64,000 nt of DNA from Capillimicrobium parvum (GCF_021172045.1 NZ_CP087164.1:186001-250000); one strand, 5' to 3'. Counted from the stretch's first letter, positions 13,711-45,791 are shown. The notes: generated from the letters alone by a model not told the origin. Numbers and translations are program-made.

Positions 13711-13718
13711 TCTCCAAA

Positions 13719-13746
13719 TGTATAAGCCGGGATGAGCGGCAGTCAA
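13719..13746 (-). promoter_or_regulatory. Sigma-70-type promoter of the amine oxidase
   Basis: On the minus strand TTGACT (13746-13741) and TATACA (13724-13719) are separated by 16 bases. Transcription should start around 13711-13713, at or within a few bases of the ATG at 13710. It lies in the 67-base divergent gap with the LuxR-type gene. Confidence 0.65.
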
Positions 13747-13777
13747 GGGGGCCTGCCCGCGATACCCTGAGGGCCCC

Positions 13778-27871: not shown

Positions 27872-29146
27872 GTGGACGTGAGCGTGAGCGGGCCGGATGA
27901 CGTGAGGGCCTTGACCAGCGGAGGTGCGTCGACGCTGCCCGCGGTCGCGCCGGTTCCGTCCGCCCCGCGCTCGGCGCAGCCGATCGTCGGCGGCGGGGCG
28001 CTCAGCCCGGCCGAGCAGAGCCGCCGCCACGACCTGCTGCAGGGCCTCATCGCCGACCGCGACCTCGACGGCCTGATCGTCGTGGCCAACGACTACCGCG
28101 GCCACAAGGGCACGCTGCGCTGGGTCACCGACTACAACCTCGCCCACCGCCACGGCTTCGCGTTCGTGCCGCGCGGCCGCGAGCCCGAGCTGATCCTGCC
28201 GCAGAACATGCAGCAGGGCTTCTCCTCGCAGGGCTGGGAGACGCCCGTGCGCTACGCGCGGCGCGCCGTGCAGGGCGTCGTCAACGCGATCGGCGAGCTG
28301 CCGGGCCACGAGCGCATCGGCATCGTGGGCCTCGGCGAGATCATGCGCGTCGCCGACGCCGAGCTGCTCAAGCGCAGCCTGCCCGCCACCCAGTTCGTCG
28401 ACGTCACGATGGACTTCGAGCAGCTCCGCGCACAGAAGTCCGCCGAGGAGCTCGCCGGCGTGCGCGAGTCGACCTACATCGTCGAGCGCTGCTTCGCGCG
28501 CCTGCTGGAGATCGCCCGGCCGGGCATCACCGAGCGCGAGATCGGCGCGGAGATGTACCGGACGATGTACCTGCTCGGCGGCGAGGACCCGCTGTTCCTG
28601 AGCATGAGCGGCGTGCGTCAGGCCGACGGCACGGTCGCGCCCGCGTGGAACCCGCCGCGCGACCGCGTCCTGCACGTGGGCGACCAGTTCGTGTTCTCCT
28701 TCGAGCTCATCGGGCCGCTCGGCTACTGGATGGAGTTCGCGCGCGCCGTCGTGTTCGGCACGCCGACCGACGACCAGGTGCGCCTGAACCGCGCCGCCGC
28801 CGAGGGCATGCGCGCCGCGGCCGAGCGAATGGTGCCCGGCGCGACGCCGGCCGCCGTCCAGCGCGGACTGCTCGACGCCGTGGAGCGCCACGACGCCGGG
28901 TCGGCGTACTGGTCCGGCCACGGCCTCGGCCAGGACGTCCTCGAGGAGCCCTGGATCGGGCGCGAGGTCGTCGACGCCGACGACGCGGTCGACTGGACGC
29001 TGTCCGAGCGGATGGTGCTCGCCATGCACCCGATGGTCCTCGACCGCGACCGGCGCGGCATCGCGTACCTCTCCAACAGCTACATCGTCACGCCCGACGG
29101 CGGGCAGGCCGTCTCCCAGATCCCCCTCGACATCCACGTCCTGTAG
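27872..29146 (+). CDS. Creatinase-like M24-family protein (copy 1)
   Basis: A 424-residue protein with an N-terminal creatinase/prolidase domain and a pita-bread C-terminal domain. The usual dinuclear-metal ligands of M24 peptidases are not kept: the Asp-Asp pair is Glu278/Glu288 (FSFELIGPLGYWME), the Glu of the EP motif is His (MVLAMHP) and the last Glu is missing (SNSYIVT); the SGHGLG His is kept. A creatinase-type non-metal hydrolase is therefore more likely than an aminopeptidase. GTG 27872 follows GAGGAGA. It begins the large co-directional cluster and abuts hyuB. Confidence 0.85.
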   Translation: MDVSVSGPDDVRALTSGGASTLPAVAPVPSAPRSAQPIVGGGALSPAEQSRRHDLLQGLIADRDLDGLIVVANDYRGHKGTLRWVTDYNLAHRHGFAFVPRGREPELILPQNMQQGFSSQGWETPVRYARRAVQGVVNAIGELPGHERIGIVGLGEIMRVADAELLKRSLPATQFVDVTMDFEQLRAQKSAEELAGVRESTYIVERCFARLLEIARPGITEREIGAEMYRTMYLLGGEDPLFLSMSGVRQADGTVAPAWNPPRDRVLHVGDQFVFSFELIGPLGYWMEFARAVVFGTPTDDQVRLNRAAAEGMRAAAERMVPGATPAAVQRGLLDAVERHDAGSAYWSGHGLGQDVLEEPWIGREVVDADDAVDWTLSERMVLAMHPMVLDRDRRGIAYLSNSYIVTPDGGQAVSQIPLDIHVL

Positions 29147-30910
29147 ATGCCCCAAGCAGCGGACCCCATCCTCGCGTCGGTCCTCCAGCGCCGCGTCGTC
29201 GCCGTTTCGCGCGAGATGGCCACGGTGCTCATGCGCTCGTCGCGCTCGCCGATCTTCAACGAGGTCGGCGACCTCGTGACCGTCGTCTTCGACCGCGCCG
29301 GGCGCACGCTGGCGCAGACCGAGTTCGCCTCGATCATCGCCTTCGGCGCCGGGCCGTCGCTGGCCGCGGTCATCGAGGCGTTCGGCGACGACGTCCACGA
29401 CGGCGACGTCTTCATCCACAACGACGTCTACAGCGGCGGCAACCAGTTCGCCGACGTCGGGCTCTACATGCCGGTCTTCCACGACGGCGAGCTCGTCGCG
29501 TGGACCGCCAGCAAGGGCCACATCGTCGACATCGGCGGCATGACGCTCGGCGGCTACGACCCCGCGTTCCGCGAGGTCTGGCAGGAGGCGTTCCGCATCC
29601 CGCCGCTGCGCCTGCACGACCGCGGGGTCCCGCGCGAGGACGTCGAGCGCCTCGTGCGCGCGAACGTGCGCCTGGATCTGACGTGGGAGGACATCCAGTC
29701 GATGATCGGCGCCTGCACCATCGGGCGCCGCCGGCTGCTGGAGGTCTACGAGCGCTACGGCACCGAGACGATCGACCGCCACATGGACGTCGTCATCGAG
29801 GCGTCCGAGCGCCAGGTGCGCGCGGAGGTCGAGCGCTGGCCCGACGGCGTCTACCACGGCGAGAGCTTCATGCAGTCCGACGGCGTGGACCCGTCGCGGC
29901 GGCTGCGGGTCGCCGTCGAGGTCACGATCGCCGGCTCGGAGATCACGTTCGACTTCTCCGGAAGCGACGACCAGACCGAGGGCTTCACGAACATGCCGGC
30001 GGCGTCGGCGATGGGCGCCATCTCGATCGCGTTCCTCATGCTGCTGAACGCGAGCGGCGTGACGGTCCCGACGAACGCCGGCCTCTTCGCGCCGATGCAC
30101 ACCGTCTTCCGCGAGGGGTCGCTCATCAACCCGCGCTTCCCCGCCGCGACGGTGTTCGGCAACCAGATGTGCGACGAGGTCGTCGAGTCGATCATGATGG
30201 CGCTCGCCGAGCCGCTCGCCGACCGCGTCTGCGCCGGGTGGAACCAGTTCCTGCCCTCGGCGATCTCCGGCATCGACCCGCGCACCGGCGGGGTCTACGT
30301 CGACTTCGTGCTGTTCTCGCGCGGCGGTTCCGGCGCGATCAAGGGCACCGACGGCTACGACGCGCTCGGGTTCACCGGCACGCCCGGCTCGATGAAGTCG
30401 CAGGACATGGAGATCTTCGAGCTCTCCACGCCCCACCACGTCGACTACCTCGAGCTCGATCCGGACTCCGCGGGCGCCGGCCAGTGGCGCGGCGGCTACG
30501 GGACGAAGACCCGCTTCCGCTTCCTCGGCGAGGGCGTGCGCGGCTCGACGCTCGGCGACGACAGCGCCGCCGAGGGCGCGGTGCCGGCCCAGGGGCTGTT
30601 CGGCGGCCGCGACGGCGGGCTGAACACCCTGCGGCTGACGATGCCCGACGGCACCGCGCGCGACTGGGGCTCCAAGGAGGCGGTGGCGATCCCCACGGGC
30701 GCGATCTGCGACTCGATCCACGGCGGCGGCGCCGGCTACGGCAGCCCGCTGGCGCGCGACCCGCGCCTCGTCGTCGACGAGGTCCGCGAGGGGCTGCTGA
30801 GCCGCGAGCGGGCGCGCGAGGTGTACGGCGTCGCGGTGCTGGACGACGCCAGCGGACACGACGAGCTCGAGACGGACCGTCTGCGGGCGGCGGAAGGGAC
30901 GACGGCATGA
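29147..30910 (+). CDS. hyuB: Hydantoinase/oxoprolinase subunit B (copy 1)
   Basis: A 587-residue HyuB-family protein (ATP-dependent hydrolysis of cyclic amides, with HyuA). Family marks include IFNEVGDLVTVVFD, VFIHNDVYSGGNQF, FDFSGSDDQTEGFTN and the late GGGAGYGSPLARDP. The ATG directly abuts the M24 stop and its own stop overlaps hyuA (ATGA). Known relatives act on 5-oxoproline, N-methylhydantoin, caprolactam or, as carboxylases, acetone/acetophenone. The neighbouring amine-handling enzymes favour a lactam or cyclic ureide (inference). Confidence 0.93.
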   Translation: MPQAADPILASVLQRRVVAVSREMATVLMRSSRSPIFNEVGDLVTVVFDRAGRTLAQTEFASIIAFGAGPSLAAVIEAFGDDVHDGDVFIHNDVYSGGNQFADVGLYMPVFHDGELVAWTASKGHIVDIGGMTLGGYDPAFREVWQEAFRIPPLRLHDRGVPREDVERLVRANVRLDLTWEDIQSMIGACTIGRRRLLEVYERYGTETIDRHMDVVIEASERQVRAEVERWPDGVYHGESFMQSDGVDPSRRLRVAVEVTIAGSEITFDFSGSDDQTEGFTNMPAASAMGAISIAFLMLLNASGVTVPTNAGLFAPMHTVFREGSLINPRFPAATVFGNQMCDEVVESIMMALAEPLADRVCAGWNQFLPSAISGIDPRTGGVYVDFVLFSRGGSGAIKGTDGYDALGFTGTPGSMKSQDMEIFELSTPHHVDYLELDPDSAGAGQWRGGYGTKTRFRFLGEGVRGSTLGDDSAAEGAVPAQGLFGGRDGGLNTLRLTMPDGTARDWGSKEAVAIPTGAICDSIHGGGAGYGSPLARDPRLVVDEVREGLLSRERAREVYGVAVLDDASGHDELETDRLRAAEGTTA

Positions 30911-33018
30911 GCTACCGGCTCGGCATCGACGTCGGCGGGACGTTCACGGACTTCCTGCTGCTGGGCGACGAGACGCAGCTCGTCCACAAGACGAGCTCGA
31001 CGCCCGACGACCCGTCACGGGGGTTCGTGCGCGGCCTGGAGGAGATCGCGGAGCGCCTCGGCGTCGCCTTCGGCGACTTCATGGCCTCGATCGAGCTGAT
31101 CGTGCACGGCACGACGGTCTCGACGAACGCCGCCCTGACCGGCAACGGCGCGCTCACGGGCGCGCTGCTCACCGAGGGCTTCCGCGACACGCTGCGCCTG
31201 CGCGACGGCACCCGCGCCACGCCGTACGACAACCACCTCACGCCGCCGCGGCCCCTGGCCGCCCGCGAGCGCACCCACGGCGTCGGGGAGCGCATCGGCC
31301 CCGAGGGCCAGGTGCACCGGGCGCTCGACGAGGACGGCGTGCGCGCCGCCGCGGCCGCGCTGCGCGCCGACGGCGTCGAGGCGGTCGCCGTCTCGTTCAT
31401 GCACTCGCCCCAGAACGACGCGCACGAGCGCCGCGCGCTGGAGATCCTCGGCGAGGAGCTGCCCGACGTCTACGTGACGGCGTCGCACGAGCTGCTGTCG
31501 CAGATCCGCTACTACCCGCGCACGAGCACGACCGTCCTCAACGCCTACGTCGGGCCGATCATCAGCCGCTACATGGCGGCGCTGACCGAGCGCCTCGACG
31601 GCCTGCGCTTCGCCGGCGTGCTGCTGATCATGCAGTCCAACGGCGGCGTCGCCACGCCGGCCGAGGTGTCGCGCCGCGCCGCGCTGTCGCTGCTGTCCGG
31701 TCCCGCGGCCGGACCCACCGCGGGCATCGAGCACCTGTCCCGGGCCGGGATCGCCGACTGCCTCACCGTCGACATGGGCGGCACGAGCTTCGACGTCGCG
31801 ATGGTCAAGGACGGGCGGCCGGTGACGATGACCGACGCGGTCGTCGCCGAGTGGCCGCTCGCGCTGCCGACGATCGACATCCACACCATCGGCGCCGGCG
31901 GCGGCTCGATCGCCACCGTCGACGAGGGCGGCCTGCTCCACGTCGGCCCGCAGAGCGCGGGCGCCGAGCCCGGCCCCGCGTGCTACGGGCGGGGCGGCAC
32001 CCTGCCGACGGTCACCGACGCCGACCTGGTGCTCGGCTACCTCAGCCCGGACAACCCGCTCGCGGGCGGCATGCGGCTCGACCTCGAGGCCGCGCGCGCG
32101 GCGTTCGCGCCGGTGGCCGACGCGCTCGGCGTGTCGATCGAGGAGGCCGCGGCCGGCGTCTACGACATCGTCAACGTGAACATGGCGACCGGCGTGCGCG
32201 ACGTCACCGTGCGCCGCGGGCTGGACCCGCGCGACTTCCCGGTCGTGGTGGCCGGCGGCGCCGGGCCGGTCCACGCGGCGGCGATCGCCGCCGAGCTTGA
32301 GGTCGCGCTGCTGTGCGTCCCGCGCGAGTCGTCGATCTTCTGCGCGGCGGGCATGCTCATGTGCGACTTCCAGCACGACGAGGTGCGCGCGCTCAAGCGG
32401 CCGCTCGCCGACGTCACGAGCGACGAGCTGGCGGCGGTGCTCGACGGGCTGGCCGCGCACGGCCGCGGCACGCTGCACGGCGAGGGCGTCGGCGACGACG
32501 CGATCTCGTTCCAGGCCTCGCTGGACCTGCGCTACGTCGGCCAGTGGCACGAGCTGCAGGTGCCGCTGGACTGGACGCCGGGCGGGGCGCCCGGGCTCGA
32601 GGCGATGGCCGAGCGCTTCCACGCGGTCCACGACCGCATGTTCGGCTACGCGTCGCCGAGCTCCGCGATCGAGTGCCTGGCGGTGCGGCTGAGCGCCGTC
32701 GGCGCCACGCCGAGCCCCGACCTCAGCGACCTCGACGAGATGGCCGTGGGCCGCGAGGCGCCCAGCGGCAGCCGCGAGACGTGGTCGCCGCGCCGCCGCG
32801 CGATGGCCGGCACGCCGGTCTACGACGGCCACGGGCTGCGCCCCGGCTTCGAGGTGTCCGGCCCGGCGATCGTCGAGCTGGCGACGACCACGATCGTCGT
32901 GCTCGAGGGCTTCGATCTCATCGTCGACCGGCGCGGCGCCTTCCTGCTGTGCGCCGGCGAACACGGCCGCGCGCTCGCCGAGCCGCTCGTCCCGGCGCTG
33001 GACTCGACCGCTTCCTAG
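30907..33018 (+). CDS. hyuA: Hydantoinase/oxoprolinase subunit A (copy 1)
   Basis: A 703-residue HyuA-family protein with an actin/Hsp70-like ATP-binding fold: GIDVGGTFTDFLL at the N-terminus, VHGTTVSTNA, DMGGTSFDVAMV and HTIGAGGGSIA. It partners HyuB for ATP-driven ring opening of a cyclic amide. Start ATG 30907 overlaps the hyuB stop; the open frame extends far upstream only as a shadow of hyuB. It is followed by the ferredoxin gene with its own ribosome site, which continues the operon. Confidence 0.94.
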   Translation: MSYRLGIDVGGTFTDFLLLGDETQLVHKTSSTPDDPSRGFVRGLEEIAERLGVAFGDFMASIELIVHGTTVSTNAALTGNGALTGALLTEGFRDTLRLRDGTRATPYDNHLTPPRPLAARERTHGVGERIGPEGQVHRALDEDGVRAAAAALRADGVEAVAVSFMHSPQNDAHERRALEILGEELPDVYVTASHELLSQIRYYPRTSTTVLNAYVGPIISRYMAALTERLDGLRFAGVLLIMQSNGGVATPAEVSRRAALSLLSGPAAGPTAGIEHLSRAGIADCLTVDMGGTSFDVAMVKDGRPVTMTDAVVAEWPLALPTIDIHTIGAGGGSIATVDEGGLLHVGPQSAGAEPGPACYGRGGTLPTVTDADLVLGYLSPDNPLAGGMRLDLEAARAAFAPVADALGVSIEEAAAGVYDIVNVNMATGVRDVTVRRGLDPRDFPVVVAGGAGPVHAAAIAAELEVALLCVPRESSIFCAAGMLMCDFQHDEVRALKRPLADVTSDELAAVLDGLAAHGRGTLHGEGVGDDAISFQASLDLRYVGQWHELQVPLDWTPGGAPGLEAMAERFHAVHDRMFGYASPSSAIECLAVRLSAVGATPSPDLSDLDEMAVGREAPSGSRETWSPRRRAMAGTPVYDGHGLRPGFEVSGPAIVELATTTIVVLEGFDLIVDRRGAFLLCAGEHGRALAEPLVPALDSTAS

Positions 33019-33029
33019 GAGACATTGCG

Positions 33030-33236
33030 ATGAGCGATCCCGAGACCCTCGACGTCATCGTCGACATGGACCTGTGCGACGGCCACGGTCAGTGTGAGTT
33101 CGCCGCGCCCGCCGTCTTCCAGCTGGACGACGAGGGCGAGCTGCAGTACGAGCCGCATCCGCCGGCGTCCGAGCGCGGCCGCGTGGAGCAGGCGATCCGG
33201 CTCTGCCCCGTGCAGGCCATCAAGCTCGGCTCGTGA
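33030..33236 (+). CDS. [3Fe-4S]-type ferredoxin
   Basis: A 68-residue small ferredoxin with Cys16-x5-Cys22 (CDGHGQC) and Cys59-Pro. His replaces the second Cys of the usual C-x2-C, giving the three-Cys pattern of [3Fe-4S] ferredoxins that feed oxygenases and P450s. AGGAGA lies 7 bases before ATG 33030. Its stop overlaps the reductase start (GTGA). It should carry electrons from the reductase to the Rieske oxygenase downstream. Confidence 0.92.
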   Translation: MSDPETLDVIVDMDLCDGHGQCEFAAPAVFQLDDEGELQYEPHPPASERGRVEQAIRLCPVQAIKLGS

Positions 33237-34444
33237 AGCGGATCGTCGTCGCCGGCGCCTCGCTCGCCGGCCTGCGCGCCGCCGAGGGCCTGCGTGCGGA
33301 GGGCTTCGACGGCGAGCTGGTCATCGTCGGCGACGAGGCGCACGCGCCGTACAACCGGCCGCCGCTGTCGAAGGAGCTGCTGGCCGGGGACGTCGACCGC
33401 GCCGACGTCGAGCTGCAGGCGGTCGGCGACCTGTCCGCCGAATGGCGGCTGGGCGTCGCGGCGACGGGCCTCGACCTCGCGGCGCGCCGCGTCGCGCTGG
33501 CCGACGGCAGCGAGCTCGCCTACGACGGCCTCGTCATCGCGACGGGGGCGGCGGCGCGGCCGCTCCAGGCCGGCCATCACCTCGACGGGGTCTTTCTGCT
33601 GCGCACGCTCGACGACAGCCTGCGCCTGCGCGCGGCGCTCGACGAGGCGCGCACGCTCGTCGTGGTCGGCGCCGGGTTCATCGGCTGCGAGGTCGCCGCC
33701 ACCGCACGCAAGCTCGGGCTCGAGGTGACGATGGTCGACGTCGCGCCCGCACCGATGCAGCCCCGCGTGGGCGACGTCGTCGCCGGCTGGGCCGCGGGCC
33801 TGCACGCCGACCGCGGCGTGCGGCTGGTGCTCGGCACGGGCGTCGCCGCACTCGAGGGCGACGGCCGCCTGACGGCCGTGCGCCTCGCCGACGGCACGCG
33901 CATCGAGGCCGACGTCGCCGTCGTCGGGCTCGGCAGCGTGCCGAACACCGGCTGGCTGGAGGGCTCGGGCGTCCCGCTCGGCAACGGCGTCGTCTGCGAG
34001 GCGACGCTCGCGGTCCAGGGCGTGCCGAGCGTGGTGGCGGCCGGCGACGTGGCGAGCTGGCCGCACGCTCCCGCGGGCGGCGGGCTGCTGCGCGTCGAGC
34101 ACTGGTCCAACGCCGTCGAGCAGGGCGCGTGGGCCGCGCGCACGCTCCTGCACGGCGGCGAGCAGGCCGGGCCGTTCCAGACGCTGCCGTCGTTCTGGTC
34201 CGATCAGCACGGCGTCCGCATCCAGTCGATCGGCCTGCCGGGCCTCGGGGACGAGAGCGTCGTCGTGGAGGGCAGCCCGGAGGAGGGCGCGTTCGCGATC
34301 CTCTACGGACGCGACGGCCGCGTCGTCGGCGCGCTCTCGGCGGGACTGCCGCCGCGCCGGCTCGCCCGGCTGCGCAAGGCCGTGATGGGCGGGGCCGGCC
34401 TGCGCGAGACGGCCGCCCGGGCGACCGAGTCCGCCGCGGCCTGA
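33233..34444 (+). CDS. FAD-dependent NAD(P)H:ferredoxin reductase
   Basis: A 403-residue putidaredoxin-reductase-type flavoprotein. The first Rossmann motif is GASLAGLRAAEGL, then NRPPLSKELLAG, a second nucleotide fold GAGFIGCEVAATA, and the C-terminal FAD contact VVAAGDVASWP. Start GTG 33233 overlaps the ferredoxin stop. It would transfer electrons from NAD(P)H to that ferredoxin. A strong hairpin lies immediately downstream, before the oxygenase genes. Confidence 0.94.
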   Translation: MKRIVVAGASLAGLRAAEGLRAEGFDGELVIVGDEAHAPYNRPPLSKELLAGDVDRADVELQAVGDLSAEWRLGVAATGLDLAARRVALADGSELAYDGLVIATGAAARPLQAGHHLDGVFLLRTLDDSLRLRAALDEARTLVVVGAGFIGCEVAATARKLGLEVTMVDVAPAPMQPRVGDVVAGWAAGLHADRGVRLVLGTGVAALEGDGRLTAVRLADGTRIEADVAVVGLGSVPNTGWLEGSGVPLGNGVVCEATLAVQGVPSVVAAGDVASWPHAPAGGGLLRVEHWSNAVEQGAWAARTLLHGGEQAGPFQTLPSFWSDQHGVRIQSIGLPGLGDESVVVEGSPEEGAFAILYGRDGRVVGALSAGLPPRRLARLRKAVMGGAGLRETAARATESAAA

Positions 34445-34459
34445 CCCGCGTCGTCGAGC

Positions 34460-34494
34460 GTCGACTTCCTCAGCCTCCGGCTGAGGAAGTCGAC
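34460..34494. terminator. 16-bp perfect stem hairpin inside the cluster
   Basis: GTCGACTTCCTCAGCC (34460-34475), loop TCC, and its exact reverse complement (34479-34494). It is the most stable hairpin noticed in the window. It lacks a U-tract. It may attenuate or end transcription between the reductase and the Rieske alpha gene, or protect an mRNA end. Confidence 0.6.
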
Positions 34495-34575
34495 ACTCGG
34501 TCCCTGACCGAACGGCGGCGCGCCGGCCCGCGGCCGGGTTCGACCACTCCGAACGCTCGCCCGCGCGCGAGGCTC

Positions 34576-34594
34576 GGCACCGTAACGTGGTGCC
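34576..34594. promoter_or_regulatory. Inverted repeat and possible -10 directly before the Rieske alpha start
   Basis: GGCACC-GTAACGT-GGTGCC is a perfect 6-bp inverted repeat whose last base touches the ATG at 34595. TAACGT (34583-34588) fits the actinobacterial TANNNT -10 box at the distance expected for a leaderless transcript starting at the A of ATG. No ribosome site is present, which agrees. Confidence 0.45.
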
Positions 34595-35920
34595 ATGTCG
34601 ACCACGCGAGAGCGCGCCACCGGCGACCTCTACGACCAGCTCGTCCTCGAGGACCGCGTCCACCGCCGGATCTACACCGACCAGGACATCTTCACCGAGG
34701 AGATGACGAAGGTCTTCGGCGCGTGCTGGGTCTACGTCGGGCACGCCAGCGAGCTCAGCGGGGCCAACGCGTTCATGACCGGCACGCTGGGCGGCCGGCC
34801 GATCATCATCACGCGCGACGCCGGCGGCGACATCCACGTCCTGCTCAACCGCTGCCTGCATCGCGGCGCCACGGTCTGCCGCGTCGAGCGCGGCCGCGCG
34901 AAGCGCTTCGTGTGCCCCTACCACGGCTGGTCCTACGCGAACGACGGCAGCCTGACCGGCGTGCCGTGGCCGAGCGGCTACGCCCCGGAGTTCGATCCCG
35001 CCAAGTACAGCCTCGGCCGGGCCAGGGTCGCCGTCTACCGCGACTTCATCTTCGCCACGCTGCACCCGTCGCCGCCGGCCATCGAGGACCACCTCGGCGC
35101 CGCCCGCCCGCTGCTGGACTACTGGATCGACCGCTTCCCCGGCGGCAAGGTCACCGCCCGCAGCGGCGCGCACCGGATGGACTGCCAGTCGAACTGGAAG
35201 CTCGTCATGGACAACTCGACCGACGGCTATCACCCCGCGTTCAGCCACCGGGCGCTGCTGCAGATGGCCCAGCGCCTCGGTGAGACGAAGGACATGGCGT
35301 ACTTCGCCGAGAGCCCGGACGACGGCGACATGTACTGCCGGTACCTCGGCAACGGGCACTCGTTCATCGACCAGCGCCCGAACTACCGCAAGCCCGGCGA
35401 CTACTGGGCCACGCAGCGCCCGACGCCGGGCCGCGAGGCGATCGAGGCGCGCATCCGGGCCCAGTACGGCGAGGAGGAGGCCACGCGCCTGCTCGACCTC
35501 ACCGTCGGCTCGCAGATGAACCTCTCGATCTTCCCGAACCTCCTGATCATCGGAAACCAGATCCAGTCCCTGCGCCCGGTGGCGGTGGACCGGACGATCC
35601 TGCTCTGGCAGGCGACGACGTCGGAGGAGCTGCCCGAGGAGCTCAACACCCTGCGCATGCGCACGCAGGAGGACTTCCCGAGCTTCGGCGAGCCCGACGA
35701 CCTCGCGAACTTCGGCGAGTGCCAGCGGGGGCTGTCGATCCCGGAGGTCGAGTGGGTGCTGATGAACCGCGGCTACGGCATCGAGGGTCGCCAGTCGCTC
35801 GACCCGGACGGGGGCGTCACCGCTCCGACCACCGACGAGACGCCGATGCGCGGCTACATCCACCACTGGAAGGCGCTCATGCAGTCCGACACGCCGGTCG
35901 TGGCCGAGGGGGTGGCGTGA
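34595..35920 (+). CDS. Rieske aromatic-ring-hydroxylating dioxygenase, alpha subunit
   Basis: A 441-residue catalytic subunit. The Rieske [2Fe-2S] ligands are Cys87, His89, Cys107 and His110 (CLHRG then CPYHGW). The mononuclear iron ligands are His213 and His218 (DGYHPAFSH), with a bridging Asp at about 206 or 210 and a C-terminal Asp in the EPDD region. It inserts O2 into an aromatic ring using electrons from the upstream ferredoxin/reductase. With the GS-like and amidotransferase-like genes downstream it matches the aniline dioxygenase type of system. A leaderless start is probable. Confidence 0.95.
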   Translation: MSTTRERATGDLYDQLVLEDRVHRRIYTDQDIFTEEMTKVFGACWVYVGHASELSGANAFMTGTLGGRPIIITRDAGGDIHVLLNRCLHRGATVCRVERGRAKRFVCPYHGWSYANDGSLTGVPWPSGYAPEFDPAKYSLGRARVAVYRDFIFATLHPSPPAIEDHLGAARPLLDYWIDRFPGGKVTARSGAHRMDCQSNWKLVMDNSTDGYHPAFSHRALLQMAQRLGETKDMAYFAESPDDGDMYCRYLGNGHSFIDQRPNYRKPGDYWATQRPTPGREAIEARIRAQYGEEEATRLLDLTVGSQMNLSIFPNLLIIGNQIQSLRPVAVDRTILLWQATTSEELPEELNTLRMRTQEDFPSFGEPDDLANFGECQRGLSIPEVEWVLMNRGYGIEGRQSLDPDGGVTAPTTDETPMRGYIHHWKALMQSDTPVVAEGVA

Positions 35921-36507
35921 TGGCGGCCGAGCTCAACGACCCCTCGCGCTACTCGACGTACGTCGACCCCGAGTTCTACGCCGCGCTGGCGCGCCACACG
36001 GCCGAGCTCGACGAGCCGGCCGCACCGGTCGACGCGGCCACCCGCGATGCCTGCGCCGCGCTGCTGTACCGCGAGGCCCGGCTGCTCGACGAGGGCCGCC
36101 TCGAGGACTGGCTCGAGCTCTTCGTGCCCGAGTGCCTGTACTGGATGCCGATGACGCCCGGCGGCGGCGAGCCGACGACGGAGGTCACGCTCGCCTTCGA
36201 CGACCGCCGGCGGCTCGAGGACCGCATCGCCTGGCTGCGCAGCGCCTACATCTGGAGCCAGATCCCGCGCTCGCGCACGCGCCGCTCGATCACGAACATT
36301 GAGGTCGTCCAGGCGCAGGCGCCCGGCGAGCTGCTCGTCCGCTCGAACTTCGTCGTCCACGACGTGCGACCGGGCTATCACGCGACGTTCCCCGGCTGGA
36401 CCGCCCACCGGCTGCGCGCCGAGGGCGACTCGTGGCTGATCGCGATCAAGCAGGTCAACCTGCTCGACAGCGACCAGGCTCATCAGAACCTGTCGATCAT
36501 CTTCTGA
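35920..36507 (+). CDS. Ring-hydroxylating dioxygenase, beta subunit
   Basis: A 195-residue NTF2-fold small subunit. Typical features are ACAALLYREARLLDEGRLEDWLELF (two pieces), PECLYWMP and SRTRRSITNIEV. It has a structural role in an alpha3-beta3 oxygenase. The ATG overlaps the alpha stop by one base (TGATG). It is unlike the SnoaL-type proteins of the 10-17 kb region despite sharing the fold. Confidence 0.93.
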   Translation: MAAELNDPSRYSTYVDPEFYAALARHTAELDEPAAPVDAATRDACAALLYREARLLDEGRLEDWLELFVPECLYWMPMTPGGGEPTTEVTLAFDDRRRLEDRIAWLRSAYIWSQIPRSRTRRSITNIEVVQAQAPGELLVRSNFVVHDVRPGYHATFPGWTAHRLRAEGDSWLIAIKQVNLLDSDQAHQNLSIIF

Positions 36508-36534
36508 CCGCCTGACCTGACTGGAGGCATGAAC

Positions 36535-38064
36535 ATGCTGACGAGCAACGCTCTCGCCCGCGCCACGAACGGCGACGCCGCGGTGGGCCGGGTCGGGTTC
36601 ATCCGCGACCACGGGCTGTGGAGCGAGGCGCAGGCCGCCGGCGCCCACGAGCTGGTCCGCCGCCTGGACGGGCTGCGCACCGTCCGCGTCTCCTGGGCCG
36701 ACCAGCACGGCCTCGTGCGCGGCAAGACCCTGCCGGTCGACGTGTTCCGCAGCGTGCTGCGCAACGGCATGCGCGTCAACACCGGCCCGGTGATCATGGA
36801 CACCGGCTCGGCGATCGCGTTCAACCCGTTCATGCCCGGCGGCGGGTTCGACAGCCTCGACATGGAGGGCTGCCCGGACGTCGTCTGCGTCCCGGACCCG
36901 TCCACGTTCCGCGTCCTGCCCTGGGCCGACCGCACCGGCTGGGTGCTGTGCGACATGTACTTCCAGAACGGCACCCCGTTTCCGTACTCCTCGCGCGCCA
37001 TCCTCAAGAACGCGGTCGCCGAGCTCGACCGGCGCAACCTCGACTGCCTGATCGGCGTCGAGCTCGAGTGGACGCTGACGAAGCTCATCGACCCGAAGCT
37101 CAGCCCCAGCTCGCTCGGCGCCCCCGGCGCCCCCGGCGAGCCGCCCGAGGTCGAGGCCGTCACCGCCGGCTACCAGTACCAGTCCGAGGTCAACGCCGAC
37201 CTCATCGCGCCGCTCATGGACACCCTGCTCGAGCAGCTCGCCGGTGCCGGCCTGCCGCTGCGCTCGCTCGAGGACGAGTGGGGCCCCTCGCAGATGGAGT
37301 TCACGTTCGACCCGCAGAGCGCGCTCGAGGCGGCCGACACCGTGCTGCTGTTCCGCAGCGCGGTCCGGCAGATCTGCCGCCGTCACGGCTACCACGCCAC
37401 GTTCATGTGCCGTCCGGGCCTGCCGGGCTTCTTCTCGTCGGGCTGGCACCTGCACCAGTCGCTCGTCGACCGCGTCTCCGGCGTCAACGCGTTCGCCGCG
37501 ATGGACGGCGAGGCGGAGCTCACGCCGCTGGGCCTGCGGTACGTCGCGGGCCTGCTCGAGCACGCCCGCGAGGCCTCCGCGTTCGTCATCCCGACCGTCA
37601 ACGGCTACAAGCGCCTGCAGCCGTACTCGCTCGCGCCGGACCGCTGCCAGTGGGGCACGGAGAACCGCGGCTCGATGATCCGCGTGACGGGCGGCCCCGG
37701 CGACCCGACGACGCACCTCGAGAACCGCGCCGGCGAGCCCGCCGCCAACCCGTACCTCTACATCGCCTCGCAGGTCTTCGCGGGCCTCGACGGCATCGAC
37801 CGCGGGCTCGACCCGGGCCGGCCGACCGACAACCCGTACGAGCACGACGCGCAGACGCTGCCGAAGTCCCTGGCCGAGGCCGTCGACGAGCTCGACGGCT
37901 CGGAGCTGTACCGCCGGACGATGGGCGACGCGTTCGTCGACTACATCGTCGGGCTCAAGCGCTCGGAGGTCGGGCGCTTCGAGACCGCGGTCGACGGCCT
38001 CCCGCCGGAGCAGCTCGCCGAGGTGACGGACTGGGAGCACCGTGAGTACTTCCAGACCTTCTGA
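36535..38064 (+). CDS. Glutamine-synthetase-like gamma-glutamyl-amine ligase
   Basis: A 509-residue GS-family protein: an N-terminal beta-grasp-like region and a catalytic domain with the ELEWT metal site, EFTFDPQSALEAAD (replacing the usual E-x-x-x-G-Q) and GWHLHQSL in place of GxGxHxHxSL. It is more divergent than housekeeping GlnA and resembles the gamma-glutamylanilide/amine ligases (TdnQ, AtdA1, IpuC) that join glutamate to an amine with ATP. GGAGG lies 7 bases before ATG 36535; ATG 36529 is too close. The position next to the Rieske genes supports an amine-activation role. Confidence 0.88.
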   Translation: MLTSNALARATNGDAAVGRVGFIRDHGLWSEAQAAGAHELVRRLDGLRTVRVSWADQHGLVRGKTLPVDVFRSVLRNGMRVNTGPVIMDTGSAIAFNPFMPGGGFDSLDMEGCPDVVCVPDPSTFRVLPWADRTGWVLCDMYFQNGTPFPYSSRAILKNAVAELDRRNLDCLIGVELEWTLTKLIDPKLSPSSLGAPGAPGEPPEVEAVTAGYQYQSEVNADLIAPLMDTLLEQLAGAGLPLRSLEDEWGPSQMEFTFDPQSALEAADTVLLFRSAVRQICRRHGYHATFMCRPGLPGFFSSGWHLHQSLVDRVSGVNAFAAMDGEAELTPLGLRYVAGLLEHAREASAFVIPTVNGYKRLQPYSLAPDRCQWGTENRGSMIRVTGGPGDPTTHLENRAGEPAANPYLYIASQVFAGLDGIDRGLDPGRPTDNPYEHDAQTLPKSLAEAVDELDGSELYRRTMGDAFVDYIVGLKRSEVGRFETAVDGLPPEQLAEVTDWEHREYFQTF

Positions 38065-38314
38065 CGCCGATCTGGAAAGGCTGGTCGCCGAGCAGCGCGC
38101 CGAGATCCGCCGCCTGCGCCGCCACGTCGCGCGGCTGGAGGCGGTCGTGGCCGAGGCGCGCCAGGCGACGCTCTGGGACTTCTCGGTGTACGAGCAGCTG
38201 CCGGACCCGAGCTGGGTGGCGATCGACCGCGACACGGCCGATCGCCTCCTGCTGTCCCTGGAGGACGTCGACGACTGGCGACCGTGGCGCTCGACGCTCG
38301 AGCGCCGGCCGTGA
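38042..38314 (+). CDS. Small coiled-coil protein of unknown function
   Basis: A 90-residue protein I do not recognise. Its first half is a charged Leu/Arg/Glu-rich helix, probably a coiled coil (LVAEQRAEIRRLRRHVARLE). The second half is Trp/Asp-rich, ending DWRPWRSTLERRP. Start GTG 38042 lies inside the last 23 bases of the GS-like gene and its stop overlaps the amidotransferase-like start (GTGA). It fills the only gap between those two genes with no spare bases, which argues that it is translated. It may be an adaptor or assembly subunit (inference). Confidence 0.7.
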   Translation: MSTSRPSDADLERLVAEQRAEIRRLRRHVARLEAVVAEARQATLWDFSVYEQLPDPSWVAIDRDTADRLLLSLEDVDDWRPWRSTLERRP

Positions 38315-39033
38315 GACCCAGCGGGTCCCCGCACGGCGACGCTCGCGCCCGGAGCGCCGCGACATCGGGGGCGCCCTGGGTGTGCGTCCGTCACGCCGAG
38401 TTCGAGGGCGCCGGCGTGTTCGCCGATGTCGCGGCCGAGCGCGGGATCGAGCTGCGCGAGGTCAAGACCGATCTCGGTGAGCCGGTGCCCGGGGTGGACG
38501 ACGTCGGCGGCGTGATCGTGCAGGGCGGCCCGTTCAGCGTCGCCGAGGCGCAGACCGTCGGGCACCTCGCCGACGAGATGCGCCTGCTGGCCGACGCGGC
38601 GCACGCCGGCCTGCCGGTGCTCGGCATCTGCCTCGGCGCCCAGCTGCTGGCCGGCGGGCTCGGCGCGGACGTCGGCCCCGCGCCGCGCGAGGAGCGCGGC
38701 ATGGACGACGTGCGCCTGACCGAGGCGGGCCTCGCAGACCCGGTCCTCGGGCCCGAGGGCCCCGGGCTGCGCATCTTCCAGTTCCATGGCGAAGCGTTCA
38801 CGCTTCCGCCGGGCGCGGAGCGCCTCGCGACCGGGGACGGCTGCCCCGAGCAGGCCTTCCGCATCGGCACGCGCGCCTACGGGCTGCAGTTCCACCACGA
38901 GCTCCCCGACCCCTTCGCCGCCTTCATCCCCGCGCACGTGCGCCCGACCCCCGACGAGCGAGCCGCGCTCAACCGCTTCGGGCGCCGGATCGCCGACCGA
39001 TTCTTCGCCGTGGCCACCGAGGAGACCCCATGA
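38311..39033 (+). CDS. Class-I glutamine-amidotransferase-like hydrolase (TdnT/AtdA2-like)
   Basis: A 240-residue protein with nucleophile Cys107 in GICLGAQ and the His195/Glu197 partners in QFHHE (QFHPE in most members). The family hydrolyses gamma-glutamyl amides. In aniline clusters the equivalent protein breaks down gamma-glutamylanilide and limits its toxic build-up. GTG 38311 overlaps the coiled-coil gene and the stop overlaps the next M24 gene, so it sits within a translationally coupled chain. Confidence 0.88.
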   Translation: MRPSGSPHGDARARSAATSGAPWVCVRHAEFEGAGVFADVAAERGIELREVKTDLGEPVPGVDDVGGVIVQGGPFSVAEAQTVGHLADEMRLLADAAHAGLPVLGICLGAQLLAGGLGADVGPAPREERGMDDVRLTEAGLADPVLGPEGPGLRIFQFHGEAFTLPPGAERLATGDGCPEQAFRIGTRAYGLQFHHELPDPFAAFIPAHVRPTPDERAALNRFGRRIADRFFAVATEETP

Positions 39034-40232
39034 ACCTGAACCGCATCCCGGCCAGCCCCCTGCGCGGCCTGGCCCAGACGCAGCAGGCGGTGCCGGTCGC
39101 GACGCCGGCCACGCTGCTGCAGCGCCGGGCGTCCCGCGCCCGGGAGCTCATGCTGGCCGACAACCTCGACGCGCTCGTCGTCTTCGGCCGCGGACACATC
39201 ACCGAGTACGGCGACGCCGCCTTCCTCACCGGCTATGCGCCCGTGGCCCGCATGTCGTACGCCGTGCTGACGCGCAGCGGCCGCGGGCCGGTGCTCGTCG
39301 CCCCGACGCCGGCCGATCGCTGGTACGCGGCCCGGCTGCCGGATGCGCCGGAGGTGCGCCTCGCGGGCGAGGGCGACGTGGTCTCGGGGCGTGACGACCT
39401 GGCGAGCGCGGCGGCCGCCGTGCTCGCCGAGGAGCGCGCCGACCGGGGCCGGATCGGCATCACGGGCCTGCGCGGCCTGCTGCCGGTCGGCGAGTTCGAC
39501 GCGCTGCGTCGGGCGCTGCCCGACGCCGAGCTCGTCGACGCCGGCTCGCTCATGTCCCGGCTGAAGCTCCTCAAGGAGGACGAGGACGTCGCCGAGATCC
39601 GGCGGACGGTCGCGATCGCCGACGCGGGCTTCATCGCCGCCCGCCAAGCGCTGCGTCCCGGCGCCACCGAGGCCGAGGTCGGCGCCGCGATCTACCAGGC
39701 GGTCTTCTCCCGCGGCACCCGCGACGCGCTCATCTTCGCCAGCGCCCAGCCGTACTTCTTGTCGTGGACGACCGACCGGCCGTTCCGCAACGGCGACCTG
39801 GCCACGATCTACGTGGAGATCGTGGGCCCGACGGGCTACTGGGTCGAGGTCGGCGGCATGGTCGCGCTCGGCACCCCGGAGCCCGAGCAGCTGCGCGTCG
39901 CCGAGGCGTGCCTGGAGGCGGCGCGGCGCGCCGAGGCGCACCTGCGCCCCGGCTCGACGGCCGGCGAGGTGGCGCGGTCCATCGACGGCGTCGCCGCCGA
40001 GGAGGACCTGCATTCGGGGCTGTGGCACGGCCACGGCATCGGCGTCGACCACGACAGCCCGGTCATCACGGCCGCCGACGACACGCCGCTGGCGCCGGGC
40101 ATGGTCATCGCCGTGCACCCGAACTTCTCGACCGCCGACGAGCGCTTCGGCGCCAGCGTGGTCGACACGTACCTGATCACCGACGACGGCTTCGACCGGC
40201 TGTCGGCCGTCCCCCAGGAGATCCTGCGATGA
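39030..40232 (+). CDS. Creatinase-like M24-family protein (copy 2)
   Basis: A 400-residue paralogue of 27872-29146. It too lacks the standard metal ligands: VEIVGPTGYWVE keeps Glu/Glu rather than Asp/Asp, the EP Glu is His (MVIAVHP) and the last ligand is absent (VVDTYLIT); HGHGIG retains the His. It overlaps the amidotransferase-like gene upstream and hyuA downstream by 4 bases each. Loss of the same ligands in both copies suggests a conserved non-metal function, such as creatinase-like C-N cleavage. Confidence 0.85.
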   Translation: MNLNRIPASPLRGLAQTQQAVPVATPATLLQRRASRARELMLADNLDALVVFGRGHITEYGDAAFLTGYAPVARMSYAVLTRSGRGPVLVAPTPADRWYAARLPDAPEVRLAGEGDVVSGRDDLASAAAAVLAEERADRGRIGITGLRGLLPVGEFDALRRALPDAELVDAGSLMSRLKLLKEDEDVAEIRRTVAIADAGFIAARQALRPGATEAEVGAAIYQAVFSRGTRDALIFASAQPYFLSWTTDRPFRNGDLATIYVEIVGPTGYWVEVGGMVALGTPEPEQLRVAEACLEAARRAEAHLRPGSTAGEVARSIDGVAAEEDLHSGLWHGHGIGVDHDSPVITAADDTPLAPGMVIAVHPNFSTADERFGASVVDTYLITDDGFDRLSAVPQEILR

Positions 40233-42310
40233 GCTACACGATCGGCATCGACGTGGGCGGCACGTTCACGGACTTCGTCCTGACCTCGAGCGGCAGCACG
40301 GAGCTGCGCGTCCACAAGTCGCCGAGCACGCCGAGCGACCCGTCGGACGGCGTTATCACCGGGCTCGGCGAGCTCGCGGAGCTCGAGGGCCTCGACCTCG
40401 CCACGTTCCTCGACCGGACGGCCATGATCGTCCACGGCACCACGGTCACGACGAACGCGGTGCTCACCGAGCGCGGCGCCCGCACCGGCCTGCTGACCAC
40501 AGAGGGCTTCCGCGACGTGCTCGAGATGCGCCGCGGCGTGCGCAGCCGCACGCACCTCTACGACAACAAGTACACGGCGCCGCCGCCGCTGGTGCCGCGC
40601 CACCTGCGCCTGCCCGTGCGCGAGCGCGTCGACGCCTCCGGAACCGCGCTCGTCGAGCTCGACCGCGACGCCGCGAGGGCCGCGGTGAGCGAGCTGCTCG
40701 GCCTCGGCGCGGAGGCGATCGCCGTCTGCTTCATGCACGCCTACGCCGACGACGCGCACGAGCGCGAGGTCGCCGAGATCGTCCGCGAGCTGGCGCCCGA
40801 CGTGTTCCTCTCGGTCTCGTCGGAGGTGCTGCCGCAGGTCCGCCTCTACGAGCGGGTGTCGACGACGGCGATGAACGCGTACGTCGGCCCGGTCCTGCGC
40901 CGCTACGTCGAGCGCCTCGTCGCGCGCCTGAACGACGAGCGCTTCGGCGGCGTGCTGCTCGTCATGCAGTCCAACGGCGGGGTCGCGATCCCCGAGATCG
41001 TCACCCACCTGCCGGCGAGCACGGTCCTGTCGGGGCCGGCGGGTGGCCCGGTCGCCGGCCTGGCCCACGCCCGCGGCGCCGGGTCCGAGGACTGCCTGAT
41101 CGTCGACATGGGCGGCACCAGCTACGACGTCTCGCTCGTGCGCGACGGCGAGGTGCAGGTCACGCACGACGGCGAGGTCAACCGCCAGTCGGTGTCGCTG
41201 CCGATGATCGACGTGCACACGATCGGCGCCGGCGGCGGCTCGATCGGCTGGCTCGACGAGGGCGGCCTCCTGCACATGGGCCCGCAGAGCGCGGGCGCCG
41301 ACCCGGGCCCCGCGGCCTACGACCGCGGCGGCACCGAGCCGACCTGCACGGACGCCGACATCGTGCTCGGCTACATCGACCCGGACTACTTCCTCGGCGG
41401 ACGGATGCCGCTGCGCGTGGATCTCGCCGAGCAGGCGATCGAGCGGCGCATCGCCGGCCCGCTCGGACTCGGGGTCGTCGAGGCGGCCGCGGCGATGTAC
41501 GACGTCATCAACCTCGTCATGGCCGCGGGCACGAAGGACATGACGCTCGCGCGCGGCGTCGACGCGGCGGAGTTCCCGCTGGTCGCCGCCGGCGGCGCGG
41601 GCGCGCTGCACGCCGGCATGATCGCGGCCGAGCTCGACCTCTCGACGGTGATCATCCCGCCGACCTCGTCGGTGCTCTGCGCGCTGGGGATGGTCCTCGC
41701 CGACCTGCGCCACGACTACGTCCAGGCCCACCGCGTCCTGTGGAGCGCGTTCGACCCGGCGGCCGCCCGCGAGCTGCTCGACGGGATGCTCGCGCAGGGC
41801 GCCGCCGCGCTGGACCGCGAGGGCGTCGAGCCGGCCCGCCGGCGCGAGCGGGTGACCGCCGACATGCGCTACATCGGCCAGCACCACGAGGTCGCCGTCG
41901 AGTTCCCGCTCGCCGATCTCGATGGCGGCGCGGAGGGCATGGACCGCATCGAGGCGGCGTTCACCGCGCGCCACGAGCAGCTGTACGGCTTCAGCGCCCC
42001 GGGCAGGCCGATGGAGGTCATCGGCCTGCACGCCACCGTGCTGGGCCGCCGCGAGGCGCCGGAGCTGCAGCAGCTGGCGGCGGAGAGCGGCGACACGCTG
42101 AAGGGCCACCGCCGCGCCTGGCTGCCGACCGAGCGCCGCCTCGAGGACGTCGAGGTCCACGACGGCCACCGGCTCGCGCCGGGCCAGCACGTCGCCGGGC
42201 CGGCGATCGTCGAACGCGCCACCACAACCGTGCTCGTGCCCGAGCGCTTCACGCTGACCGTCGACCGCCTCGGCAGCCTCATCCTGAGCAACAAGGAGCA
42301 GTCCCGATGA
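40229..42310 (+). CDS. hyuA: Hydantoinase/oxoprolinase subunit A (copy 2)
   Basis: A 693-residue HyuA-family ATPase subunit: GIDVGGTFTDFVL, VHGTTVTTNAV, DMGGTSYDVSLV, HTIGAGGGSIGW. It is clearly paralogous to 30907-33018 but has diverged through most of its length. The order here is M24-hyuA-hyuB, while copy 1 is M24-hyuB-hyuA, so the two modules are not a simple recent tandem duplication. The 4-base overlap with both neighbours indicates coupled translation. Confidence 0.94.
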   Translation: MSYTIGIDVGGTFTDFVLTSSGSTELRVHKSPSTPSDPSDGVITGLGELAELEGLDLATFLDRTAMIVHGTTVTTNAVLTERGARTGLLTTEGFRDVLEMRRGVRSRTHLYDNKYTAPPPLVPRHLRLPVRERVDASGTALVELDRDAARAAVSELLGLGAEAIAVCFMHAYADDAHEREVAEIVRELAPDVFLSVSSEVLPQVRLYERVSTTAMNAYVGPVLRRYVERLVARLNDERFGGVLLVMQSNGGVAIPEIVTHLPASTVLSGPAGGPVAGLAHARGAGSEDCLIVDMGGTSYDVSLVRDGEVQVTHDGEVNRQSVSLPMIDVHTIGAGGGSIGWLDEGGLLHMGPQSAGADPGPAAYDRGGTEPTCTDADIVLGYIDPDYFLGGRMPLRVDLAEQAIERRIAGPLGLGVVEAAAAMYDVINLVMAAGTKDMTLARGVDAAEFPLVAAGGAGALHAGMIAAELDLSTVIIPPTSSVLCALGMVLADLRHDYVQAHRVLWSAFDPAAARELLDGMLAQGAAALDREGVEPARRRERVTADMRYIGQHHEVAVEFPLADLDGGAEGMDRIEAAFTARHEQLYGFSAPGRPMEVIGLHATVLGRREAPELQQLAAESGDTLKGHRRAWLPTERRLEDVEVHDGHRLAPGQHVAGPAIVERATTTVLVPERFTLTVDRLGSLILSNKEQSR

Positions 42311-44124
42311 CCGACGCCGCGACCACCCCGGCGGCCGCGTCCGTCCAGGGCGACGCCGCGACCACCCCGGCGGCCGCGTCCGTCCAGGGCGACGACGCGA
42401 TCCTCACCTCGATCATGGCCAGCCGGCTGAAGACGATCGGTCAGCGCATGGGCGTCGTGGTCGAGCGCAGCGCGCGCTCGCCGCTGCTCGTCGAGGGCCG
42501 CGACTTCTCGCTGGGCATCTACGCCGCCGACGGCACGCTGCTCGAGCAGACCGAGTACATCCCGGTCCTCGGCTACGCGACCACGCCGGCGATGCGCTAC
42601 ATCGCCGAGTACTTCGGCGACGACGTGGCGGAGGGCGATGTCGTCCTGCACAACGACCCGTACACCGGCGGCAACCAGCTGTCGGACTGGAAGGTCACCA
42701 AGCCCGTCTTCCACGAGGGCGAGCACGTCGCCTGGGTCGTGATCGCCGCGCACCAGGCCGACGTCGGCGGCGCGGTGCCGGGCTCCTACAACCCGGACGC
42801 GACCGACATGTGGCAGGAGGGCCTGCGCATCACGCCGCTGAAGCTCTACGACGGCGGCCGGCGCCGGCAGGACGTGTGGGACTTCGTGTTCGGCAACGTC
42901 CGGCTGCCGATCGTCGCCGACGACATCACGGCGATGATGGGGGCCTGCACGGTCGGCGAGCGCGAGCTCAAGGCGCTGCTTGCCCGCTACGGCCGCGGCG
43001 CGTTCGACACCGCCTGCGCCCGGCTGCTCGACGCGTCGGAGGCCAGCGCCCGCGCGGTCGTCGAGCGGATCGCCGACGGCACCTACGAGGCCGAGTGGTA
43101 CGTCCACGACGACGGCATCGACCACGACGGCGAGTGGACGATCCGCGTCGCGGTGAGGGTCGAGGGCGACGAGATCACGTTCGACTTCTCGAAGTCCGAC
43201 GACCAGGCGACCGGCTACGTCAACGCGCCGCTGGCGGTGACGCTGTCGTCGGTGATGATCGCCTTCTTCATGATCGCCGACCAGGATCTGCCCCACAACG
43301 ACGGGATCATGCGCGTGGTCAAGGTCGTCGCGCGCGAGGGCTCGATCGTCCATCCGAAGTACCCCGCGCCGACGGGGTTCGGCAACCACCTGTCCGACCA
43401 GATCGCCGCGGTGATCATGCTCGCGCTGGCGCCGGCGATGCCGCAGACCGTCACCGCATCGTGGAACCACCTGCTCGCGACGCTCGTCTCCGGGTGGGAC
43501 GACCGCATCGACGGCCCGTACGTCGACATCCTCATCAACGCCTGCAAGGGCGGCGGCGGCGGGACGTACGGCGCCGACGGCTACGACCACATCGGCCTCA
43601 TCACGTCGGGCGGCGCGATCGCCGCGCAGGACCCGGAGATGTACGAGGTCGTCAACCCGCACCGGCTGCGCAAGTTCGAGTACGCGCCGGACTCGGCGGG
43701 CGCCGGCCAGTGGCGCGGCGGCCTCGGCGTCGAGACGGAGTTCGAGTTCCTCACGTCGGGGACGATCGCCAGCGTGTTCGGCGACGGCGGCACGCCCGAG
43801 ACCGCGGCGTTCGGCATCCTCGGCGGCCGGTCGGGCAGCCCGAACGAGATCGAGCTGCGCTACCCCGACGGCCGCGTCGAGCGTCCGCGGCTGAAGGACC
43901 TCGTCACCGACATTCCCGCCGGGACGGTCTACCGCCAGGTCGCCGGCGGCGGGGGCGGCTACGGCGACCCGCACGCGCGGGCCGCGGAGCGCGTGCTCCA
44001 GGACGCGCGCCACGGCTACGTCTCGCTCGAGAACGCACGCGAGGTCTACGGCGTGGCGATCGACGCGCAGACGTGGACGATCGACGAGGCCGAGACCGCG
44101 CGGCTGCGGGACGGCGCGGGCTGA
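42307..44124 (+). CDS. hyuB: Hydantoinase/oxoprolinase subunit B (copy 2)
   Basis: A 605-residue HyuB-family subunit with VVLHNDPYTGGNQLSDWK, FDFSKSDDQATGYVN and GGGGGYGDPHARAAE. Its N-terminus carries an extra 26 residues made of two identical 13-residue units (DAATTPAAASVQG), encoded by a perfect 39-bp tandem repeat and absent from copy 1. ATG 42307 overlaps the hyuA stop. It ends the 16 kb co-directional cluster, meeting the minus-strand IclR gene 11 bases on. Confidence 0.93.
   Translation: MTDAATTPAAASVQGDAATTPAAASVQGDDAILTSIMASRLKTIGQRMGVVVERSARSPLLVEGRDFSLGIYAADGTLLEQTEYIPVLGYATTPAMRYIAEYFGDDVAEGDVVLHNDPYTGGNQLSDWKVTKPVFHEGEHVAWVVIAAHQADVGGAVPGSYNPDATDMWQEGLRITPLKLYDGGRRRQDVWDFVFGNVRLPIVADDITAMMGACTVGERELKALLARYGRGAFDTACARLLDASEASARAVVERIADGTYEAEWYVHDDGIDHDGEWTIRVAVRVEGDEITFDFSKSDDQATGYVNAPLAVTLSSVMIAFFMIADQDLPHNDGIMRVVKVVAREGSIVHPKYPAPTGFGNHLSDQIAAVIMLALAPAMPQTVTASWNHLLATLVSGWDDRIDGPYVDILINACKGGGGGTYGADGYDHIGLITSGGAIAAQDPEMYEVVNPHRLRKFEYAPDSAGAGQWRGGLGVETEFEFLTSGTIASVFGDGGTPETAAFGILGGRSGSPNEIELRYPDGRVERPRLKDLVTDIPAGTVYRQVAGGGGGYGDPHARAAERVLQDARHGYVSLENAREVYGVAIDAQTWTIDEAETARLRDGAG
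42313..42390. repeat. Perfect 2 x 39-bp in-frame tandem repeat
   Basis: Positions 42313-42351 and 42352-42390 are identical, encoding DAATTPAAASVQG twice at the N-terminus of HyuB copy 2. Exact identity over 39 bases implies a recent duplication or slippage. Confidence 0.9.
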
Positions 44125-45699: not shown

Positions 45700-45791
45700 G
45701 CGCTGGGTCAGGCGGACGGGGGCGGCTGCAAGCCGACGCGGTAGGTGCTCCGTGCGCGACATGAGACGCGTGGAATGTATCACGACACCAG

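Follow-up and report, generated by a model that had tools for sequence, protein, structure and literature searches.

The genome of Capillimicrobium parvum carries an aniline-dioxygenase-like gene set between two putative modules for ATP-dependent amide hydrolysis, which raises the question of whether the three parts form one pathway or are neighbors of separate origin. The 13 genes concerned all lie on the plus strand at 27872-44124 of the 64,000-nucleotide stretch analyzed here (NZ_CP087164.1:186001-250000 of assembly GCF_021172045.1; hereafter “the window”, to which positions refer unless a contig or locus is named). A first-pass annotation made from the sequence alone had described these genes as one co-directional cluster, an aniline-type core flanked by two modules of HyuA, HyuB and M24 proteins, and had proposed that the modules release an arylamine for the core to degrade. 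Every gene was recovered with the same orientation and coordinates, and Pfam and NCBIfam profile searches confirmed the family assignments. We consider it reasonably likely that an actinobacterial aniline-type core (34595-39033) entered, by insertion, an amide-catabolic island of greater age in which two caprolactamase-like HyuAB modules were present beforehand.

Assignment of 34595-39033 as an aniline-type arylamine oxygenase core is supported by comparison of its predicted proteins with those of known clusters. In a maximum-likelihood tree, the Rieske dioxygenase alpha subunit (34595-35920) fell inside a well-supported clade (99/96) with alphas from Delftia (dca type), Pseudonocardia, Corynebacterium, Rhodococcus and Dietzia; its identity was 61% to the Pseudonocardia protein, 57% to those of Nostoc, Corynebacterium, Rhodococcus and Dietzia, and 49% to the Delftia dca alpha. 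The beta subunit (35917-36507; Pfam PF00866) was 48-53% identical to betas of actinobacterial aniline clusters. A glutamine synthetase-like (GS-like) protein recognized by Pfam (36529-38064), a candidate gamma-glutamyl-arylamide synthetase, shared 53% identity with the plasmid-encoded dca/tdn-type GS of Delftia, and its best solved relative was 8wwu, which is NpaA1, the glutamylating enzyme for 1-naphthylamine (PMC11335346). At the amine-binding and entry-tunnel positions taken from that study, F86, E232, E234 and W235 were retained, position 201 was Tyr (as in AtdA1) and position 81 was Ile, which the Delftia dca GS also has. The alpha clade and these GS relatives bear out the earlier description of the core as aniline-type. 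The class I glutamine amidotransferase (GAT; TdnT/AtdA2-like, Pfam GATase), which starts at 38284 or 38311 and ends at 39033, was 33-42% identical to aniline-cluster GATs, kept its Cys (GICLGAQ) and His-x-Glu (FHHE), and adjoined the GS and oxygenase genes, as in aniline-type clusters.

The remaining core gene (cc, 38042-38314), first annotated as a coiled-coil gene, encodes a small helical protein of actinobacterial aniline clusters. Five homologs were found, in actinobacterial aniline-type clusters, and all six sequences share the motifs WDF..Y, W(L/V)A(I/L/V)DR and D.W.PW. Searches of Pfam and NCBIfam returned no family match, and a phylum-wide sample of 395 other genomes yielded just one, weak match. 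An AlphaFold model (mean predicted local distance difference test score [pLDDT] 69.5; three sequences) consisted of one long helix (residues 8-48) and an uncertain remainder. On these sequence comparisons, cc is a small conserved family that marks actinobacterial aniline clusters; the gene lies between beta and GAT in the other clusters and directly after GS here.

Upstream of the oxygenase lie genes for a ferredoxin of the single 4Fe-4S/3Fe-4S cluster type (33030-33236; Pfam Fer4_15/Fer4_13) and an HcaD/AndAa-like, FAD-dependent ferredoxin-NAD(+) reductase (33233-34444; Pfam and NCBIfam), the latter 34-41% identical to reductases of actinobacterial aniline clusters. The beta subunit and the linked reductase are thus related to their aniline-cluster counterparts, and the linked ferredoxin is of another type. 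This pair (33030-34444) probably donates electrons to the alpha/beta oxygenase.

The modules that flank these genes each combine a HyuAB pair with an M24 protein: M24a (27872-29146), hyuBa (29147-30910) and hyuAa (30907-33018) on one side, and M24b (39030-40232), hyuAb (40229-42310) and hyuBb (42307-44124) on the other. Caprolactamase was the top NCBIfam match of both pairs, with 656 and 665 bits for CapA (alpha, the ATP-binding subunit HyuA) and 344 and 385 bits for CapB (beta, the metal subunit HyuB), all below the equivalog cutoffs of 1000. HyuAa and HyuBa align to CapAB of Pseudomonas jessenii (6yra, chains A and B), a two-subunit ATP-dependent lactamase in which the ATP motifs and Asp-His-Asp-His metal ligands are essential by mutagenesis (PMC8453981); both features are intact in the a-module pair, and the same motifs and metal tetrad are legible in the sequences of HyuAb and HyuBb. 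The claim that the HyuAB proteins belong to an ATP-dependent family therefore stands, as both pairs retain catalytic residues known from caprolactamase. Unlike CapAB, the pairs here fall under the equivalog cutoffs and are accompanied by M24 proteins and an arylamine core. Acetone and acetophenone carboxylases belong to the same superfamily and gave weaker NCBIfam matches to Apc subunits, so that the pairs might instead be ATP-dependent carboxylases; however, CapA scores were roughly twice the Apc scores (656 versus 330 and 665 versus 373 bits) and the cluster lacks an additional Apc-type subunit, making a carboxylase role extremely improbable. Both M24 proteins carry a creatinase N-terminal domain (Pfam Creatinase_N plus Peptidase_M24). 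Alignments to prolidases and reading of the sequences showed that the canonical Asp-Asp-His-Glu-Glu dimetal set is not kept in either, the second Asp being replaced by Glu and the first Glu by His (in MHP or VHP); because several canonical peptidase metal ligands are missing, M24a and M24b are probably creatinase-like proteins and not peptidases.

Gene content in related genomes bears most directly on the origin of the locus. In G192, which belongs to a different genus within the family, M24a-hyuBa-hyuAa occur in the same order on contig C350 (50% identity for M24a), close to orthologs of IOR-like genes of the window (described below). On contig C343 of G192, hyuAb-hyuBb (66 and 73% identity) are accompanied by orthologs of the window genes for AMP ligase, M20, thiolase-like, alpha/beta-hydrolase, GMC oxidoreductase and copper amine oxidase proteins. 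The core and M24b were absent from the stretches of C343 and C350 that were read. A further genome (G038) carries M24b-hyuAb-hyuBb without the core, alongside an FCD regulator and an ATP-binding cassette transporter (47, 58 and 61% identity, respectively, for the three module proteins). Among 232 genomes of the order, alpha matches at E ≤ 1e-90 were confined to the window's own genome (0 of 231 others), and GS relatives within the genus were paralogs of just 30-40% identity. Flanks of up to 10 kb around approximately 80 GS-family loci contained a HyuB match in just one case, weak and antisense. On this gene content the HyuAB modules do not depend on the core, and because no core was found in G192 or elsewhere in the order, its insertion into a pre-existing amide-catabolic island is the most likely course of events. 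Recent duplication of hyuAa and hyuAb was considered and rejected, since the two proteins are 49% identical to each other versus 64 and 66% to separate G192 orthologs. Compared with C343 and C350, the region from about -11 kb to 53 kb of the window forms an extensive catabolic island that is conserved in content but differs in gene order, and whose shared genes encode an AMP ligase, GMC oxidoreductase, copper amine oxidase, thiolase-like and M20 proteins, HyuAB, and an indolepyruvate-ferredoxin oxidoreductase (IOR)-like protein. The last (19881-22046) resembles the alpha subunit of that thiamine pyrophosphate enzyme (NCBIfam IOR_alpha, 281 bits, under cutoff) and shares 81-85% identity with a protein encoded close to M24a-hyuBa-hyuAa in G192.

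The same comparisons bear on a proposal that would tie HyuAB to the chemistry of the core. Since 5-oxoprolinase belongs to the HyuA/HyuB superfamily (PMC8453981) and the core would turn over gamma-glutamyl compounds, the pairs might recycle to glutamate, with ATP, any 5-oxoproline lost as the glutamyl group from gamma-glutamyl arylamides. Yet the other aniline-type clusters inspected contain no HyuAB, both modules exist without the core, and the nearest NCBIfam family is caprolactamase, though under its cutoff; we regard this role as very unlikely.

The junctions within the cluster divide it in a manner that matters for how many pathways it may encode. The first-pass description of mostly 4-base overlaps holds for 6 of 12 junctions (hyuBa/hyuAa, ferredoxin/reductase, alpha/beta, GAT/M24b, M24b/hyuAb and hyuAb/hyuBb; 7 of 12 if GAT starts at 38311), but the cluster is broken by 150 bp separating reductase from alpha. 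This gap contains an inverted repeat with 21-nucleotide arms (95% complementary) and a 3-nucleotide loop (34455-34499, assigned to no strand), and folds much better than shuffled sequences (z = -5.9). Because of this repeat, two transcription units are likely, and the genes are probably transcribed as M24a-hyuBa-hyuAa-ferredoxin-reductase and alpha-beta-GS-cc-GAT-M24b-hyuAb-hyuBb, with the hairpin as the probable end of the first. The repeat, GCGTCGA(G/C)TTCCT...AGGAA(G/C)TCGACGC, is dispersed elsewhere in the genome, a stricter pattern matching seven further sites versus none for a control read backwards, and may be a terminator-like or repetitive element. Sites on the chromosome (G000:C1) include 113793, 586497, 1298605, 2175665, 3058580, 3966271 and 4712692, among others. 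Immediately 5′ of the alpha start codon lies a perfect palindrome, GGCACC-N7-GGTGCC (34576-34594, no strand), of which no second perfect copy was found in the window; it is a possible operator, or the alpha transcript may be leaderless. A scan for sigma-70 promoters gave no match.

Two rival accounts of the locus are weighed by these junctions together with the related genomes. The first is that the cluster encodes one dedicated pathway, in which a lactam, hydantoin or N-acyl arylamine is first opened or deprotected by the two M24-HyuAB modules, leaving a free arylamine for the core to degrade. The tight overlaps between core and b-module favor it, as do the amide hydrolases encoded near GS genes of the same family in other genomes (Rhodococcus and Prescottella, amidases; Streptomyces and genome G238, a CN-hydrolase), and linuron hydrolase HylA, which feeds the dca system, is a precedent at the level of pathway (PMC5911999). 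Against it stand the relatives that carry both modules without the core, the hairpin between a-module and core, and the lack of conserved linkage across the approximately 80 GS-family loci, and we judge it rather unlikely. The earlier proposal that the HyuAB modules serve to release arylamine is accordingly not supported, as the presence of both modules without the core in relatives comes close to what that annotation had itself named as contrary evidence; the 4-base overlaps that join GAT-M24b-hyuAb-hyuBb speak against its outright refutation. The second account is that the neighborhood is accidental, the modules having unrelated functions in the island and merely adjoining an inserted arylamine operon. 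The independent presence of the modules in G192 and G038, the division of the cluster by the hairpin and the conservation of the flanking island without the core are all consistent with this; chance juxtaposition would not usually leave GAT and M24b overlapping by 4 bases, and this account, too, seems rather unlikely.

Several observations weigh against insertion of an aniline-type core as we favor it. Loss of the core elsewhere, instead of insertion here, is possible, and the G192 assembly is fragmented. The ferredoxin differs from the annotated 2Fe-2S ferredoxins of the other actinobacterial aniline clusters, and the hairpin lies between it and alpha. The GS-like protein fell outside the 100/100-supported clade that unites NpaA1 with the GS enzymes of dca and actinobacterial aniline clusters, and position F75 is replaced by Met; for these two reasons its amine may not be aniline-like. 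Judged from its sequence, the substrate is likely an arylamine, not necessarily aniline.

Under the insertion reading, each reaction is inferred from protein family. The GS-like enzyme would couple glutamate to an aromatic amine with ATP, and the Rieske oxygenase, with ferredoxin and reductase, would turn the resulting gamma-glutamyl arylamide into a catechol, freeing the nitrogen; the amidotransferase-like protein would hydrolyze surplus gamma-glutamyl arylamide. The catechol could be processed further because the same genome encodes a catA-like intradiol dioxygenase and an MR_MLE-family (muconate cycloisomerase-like) protein about 39 kb upstream of the cluster (~G000:C1:172.6-174.9 kb), which would open the ring. 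With a divergent upstream open reading frame, this region spans approximately G000:C1:171.7-174.9 kb (L152 5670-8912), upstream of the window. The HyuAB pairs would hydrolyze a stable cyclic amide or imide at the expense of ATP. As 4-base overlaps link the b-module to the core, a shared pathway is plausible for these two, making the b-module the better candidate for producing or trimming the arylamine; for the a-module, beyond the hairpin, this is less certain, and it probably retains an older role in the island. In its most specific form, a HyuAB lactamase and its M24 partner would, by opening the ring of a benzo-fused or N-aryl lactam, yield an arylamine for products of the same operon to gamma-glutamylate and dioxygenate, a proposal that we consider unlikely. 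To our knowledge, no such lactam-to-catechol route has been described for aerobic bacteria.

The closest counterparts of the core are the actinobacterial aniline clusters, namely cad of Rhodococcus sp. DH-2 (PMC11596033) and those of plasmids pCOCCU, pDND3A and pDK2035-69 (from Corynebacterium, Rhodococcus and Dietzia), which share alpha, beta, cc, GAT, GS-like, ferredoxin and reductase genes (for cc, this comparison covers the plasmids but not DH-2). In the published Rhodococcus cluster, which comprises the same named enzymes, the products are catechol and cis,cis-muconate (PMC11596033). The plasmids have the order alpha-beta-cc-GAT-GS-ferredoxin-reductase with catA adjacent, an IS3 element separating cc from GAT in pDND3A, and Pseudonocardia has alpha-beta-cc-GAT-GS. 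In contrast, the cluster here has GS before cc and GAT, ferredoxin and reductase upstream, a dissimilar ferredoxin, no adjacent catA, and two flanking M24-HyuAB modules. Proteobacterial tdn/atd/dca and npa (PMC11335346) systems share the GS-like, GAT-like and Rieske alpha/beta proteins (53 and 49% identity to Delftia dca-type GS and alpha); however, no cc was found in them, their reductase is of a different type, and they lack HyuAB. With HylA and dca of Variovorax WDL1 (PMC5911999) the shared logic is amide hydrolysis followed by arylamine glutamylation and dioxygenation, but HylA is a phenylurea hydrolase, whereas the candidates here for a putative first step are ATP-dependent HyuAB with M24 partners. 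The annotated stretch of Variovorax SRS16 has no amide hydrolase adjoining its dca genes. In G238 and a Streptomyces tendae plasmid, the CN-hydrolase gene lies between GS-like and GAT (L107 8025-9026; L127 13508-14548). Plasmids of Prescottella equi and Rhodococcus qingshengii (L124 and L126) group GAT, an AmiS/UreI transporter, amidase, GS-like and acetate-CoA ligase, and look like pathways for N-acetyl arylamines (acetanilide or paracetamol type). As the first-pass annotation had supposed, no cluster with an arylamine core flanked by HyuAB modules appears to have been described; a full-text search of the literature that paired hydantoinase with aniline dioxygenase gave no match.

Downstream, two regulator genes lie on the minus strand. 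One, convergent with the cluster, is an IclR-type, PcaR/PcaU-like gene (44136-44984; Pfam; NCBIfam TIGR02431, 155 bits, below cutoff), a type also present in the Dietzia aniline cluster. The other is a GntR/FCD gene (45004-45711, start approximate; Pfam), whose product matches, at 41%, the FCD regulator encoded divergently from alpha in Pseudonocardia. Also nearby, within 16 kb of the 13 genes, are those for a styrene-monooxygenase-like flavoprotein (15327-16604) and a copper amine oxidase (11827-13830), from which an aromatic-amine or indole-type substrate of the island is conceivable; by analogy with neighboring genes and precedent, an oxindole or indole-derived substrate was also considered.

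What is new at this locus is a combination of known parts, an amide hydrolase and an arylamine dioxygenase, where related bacteria carry the HyuAB modules separately. If the b-module feeds the core, stable aryl lactams would gain a defined, ATP-driven entry to catechol metabolism, which would be useful for bioremediation and for learning what the HyuAB enzymes, largely uncharacterized so far, act on in nature. If it does not, the locus would be a clear case of an arylamine operon inserted in a family-specific amide-catabolic island. Independent of the pathway question, the cc protein, which has no known function, would serve as a marker of actinobacterial aniline clusters.

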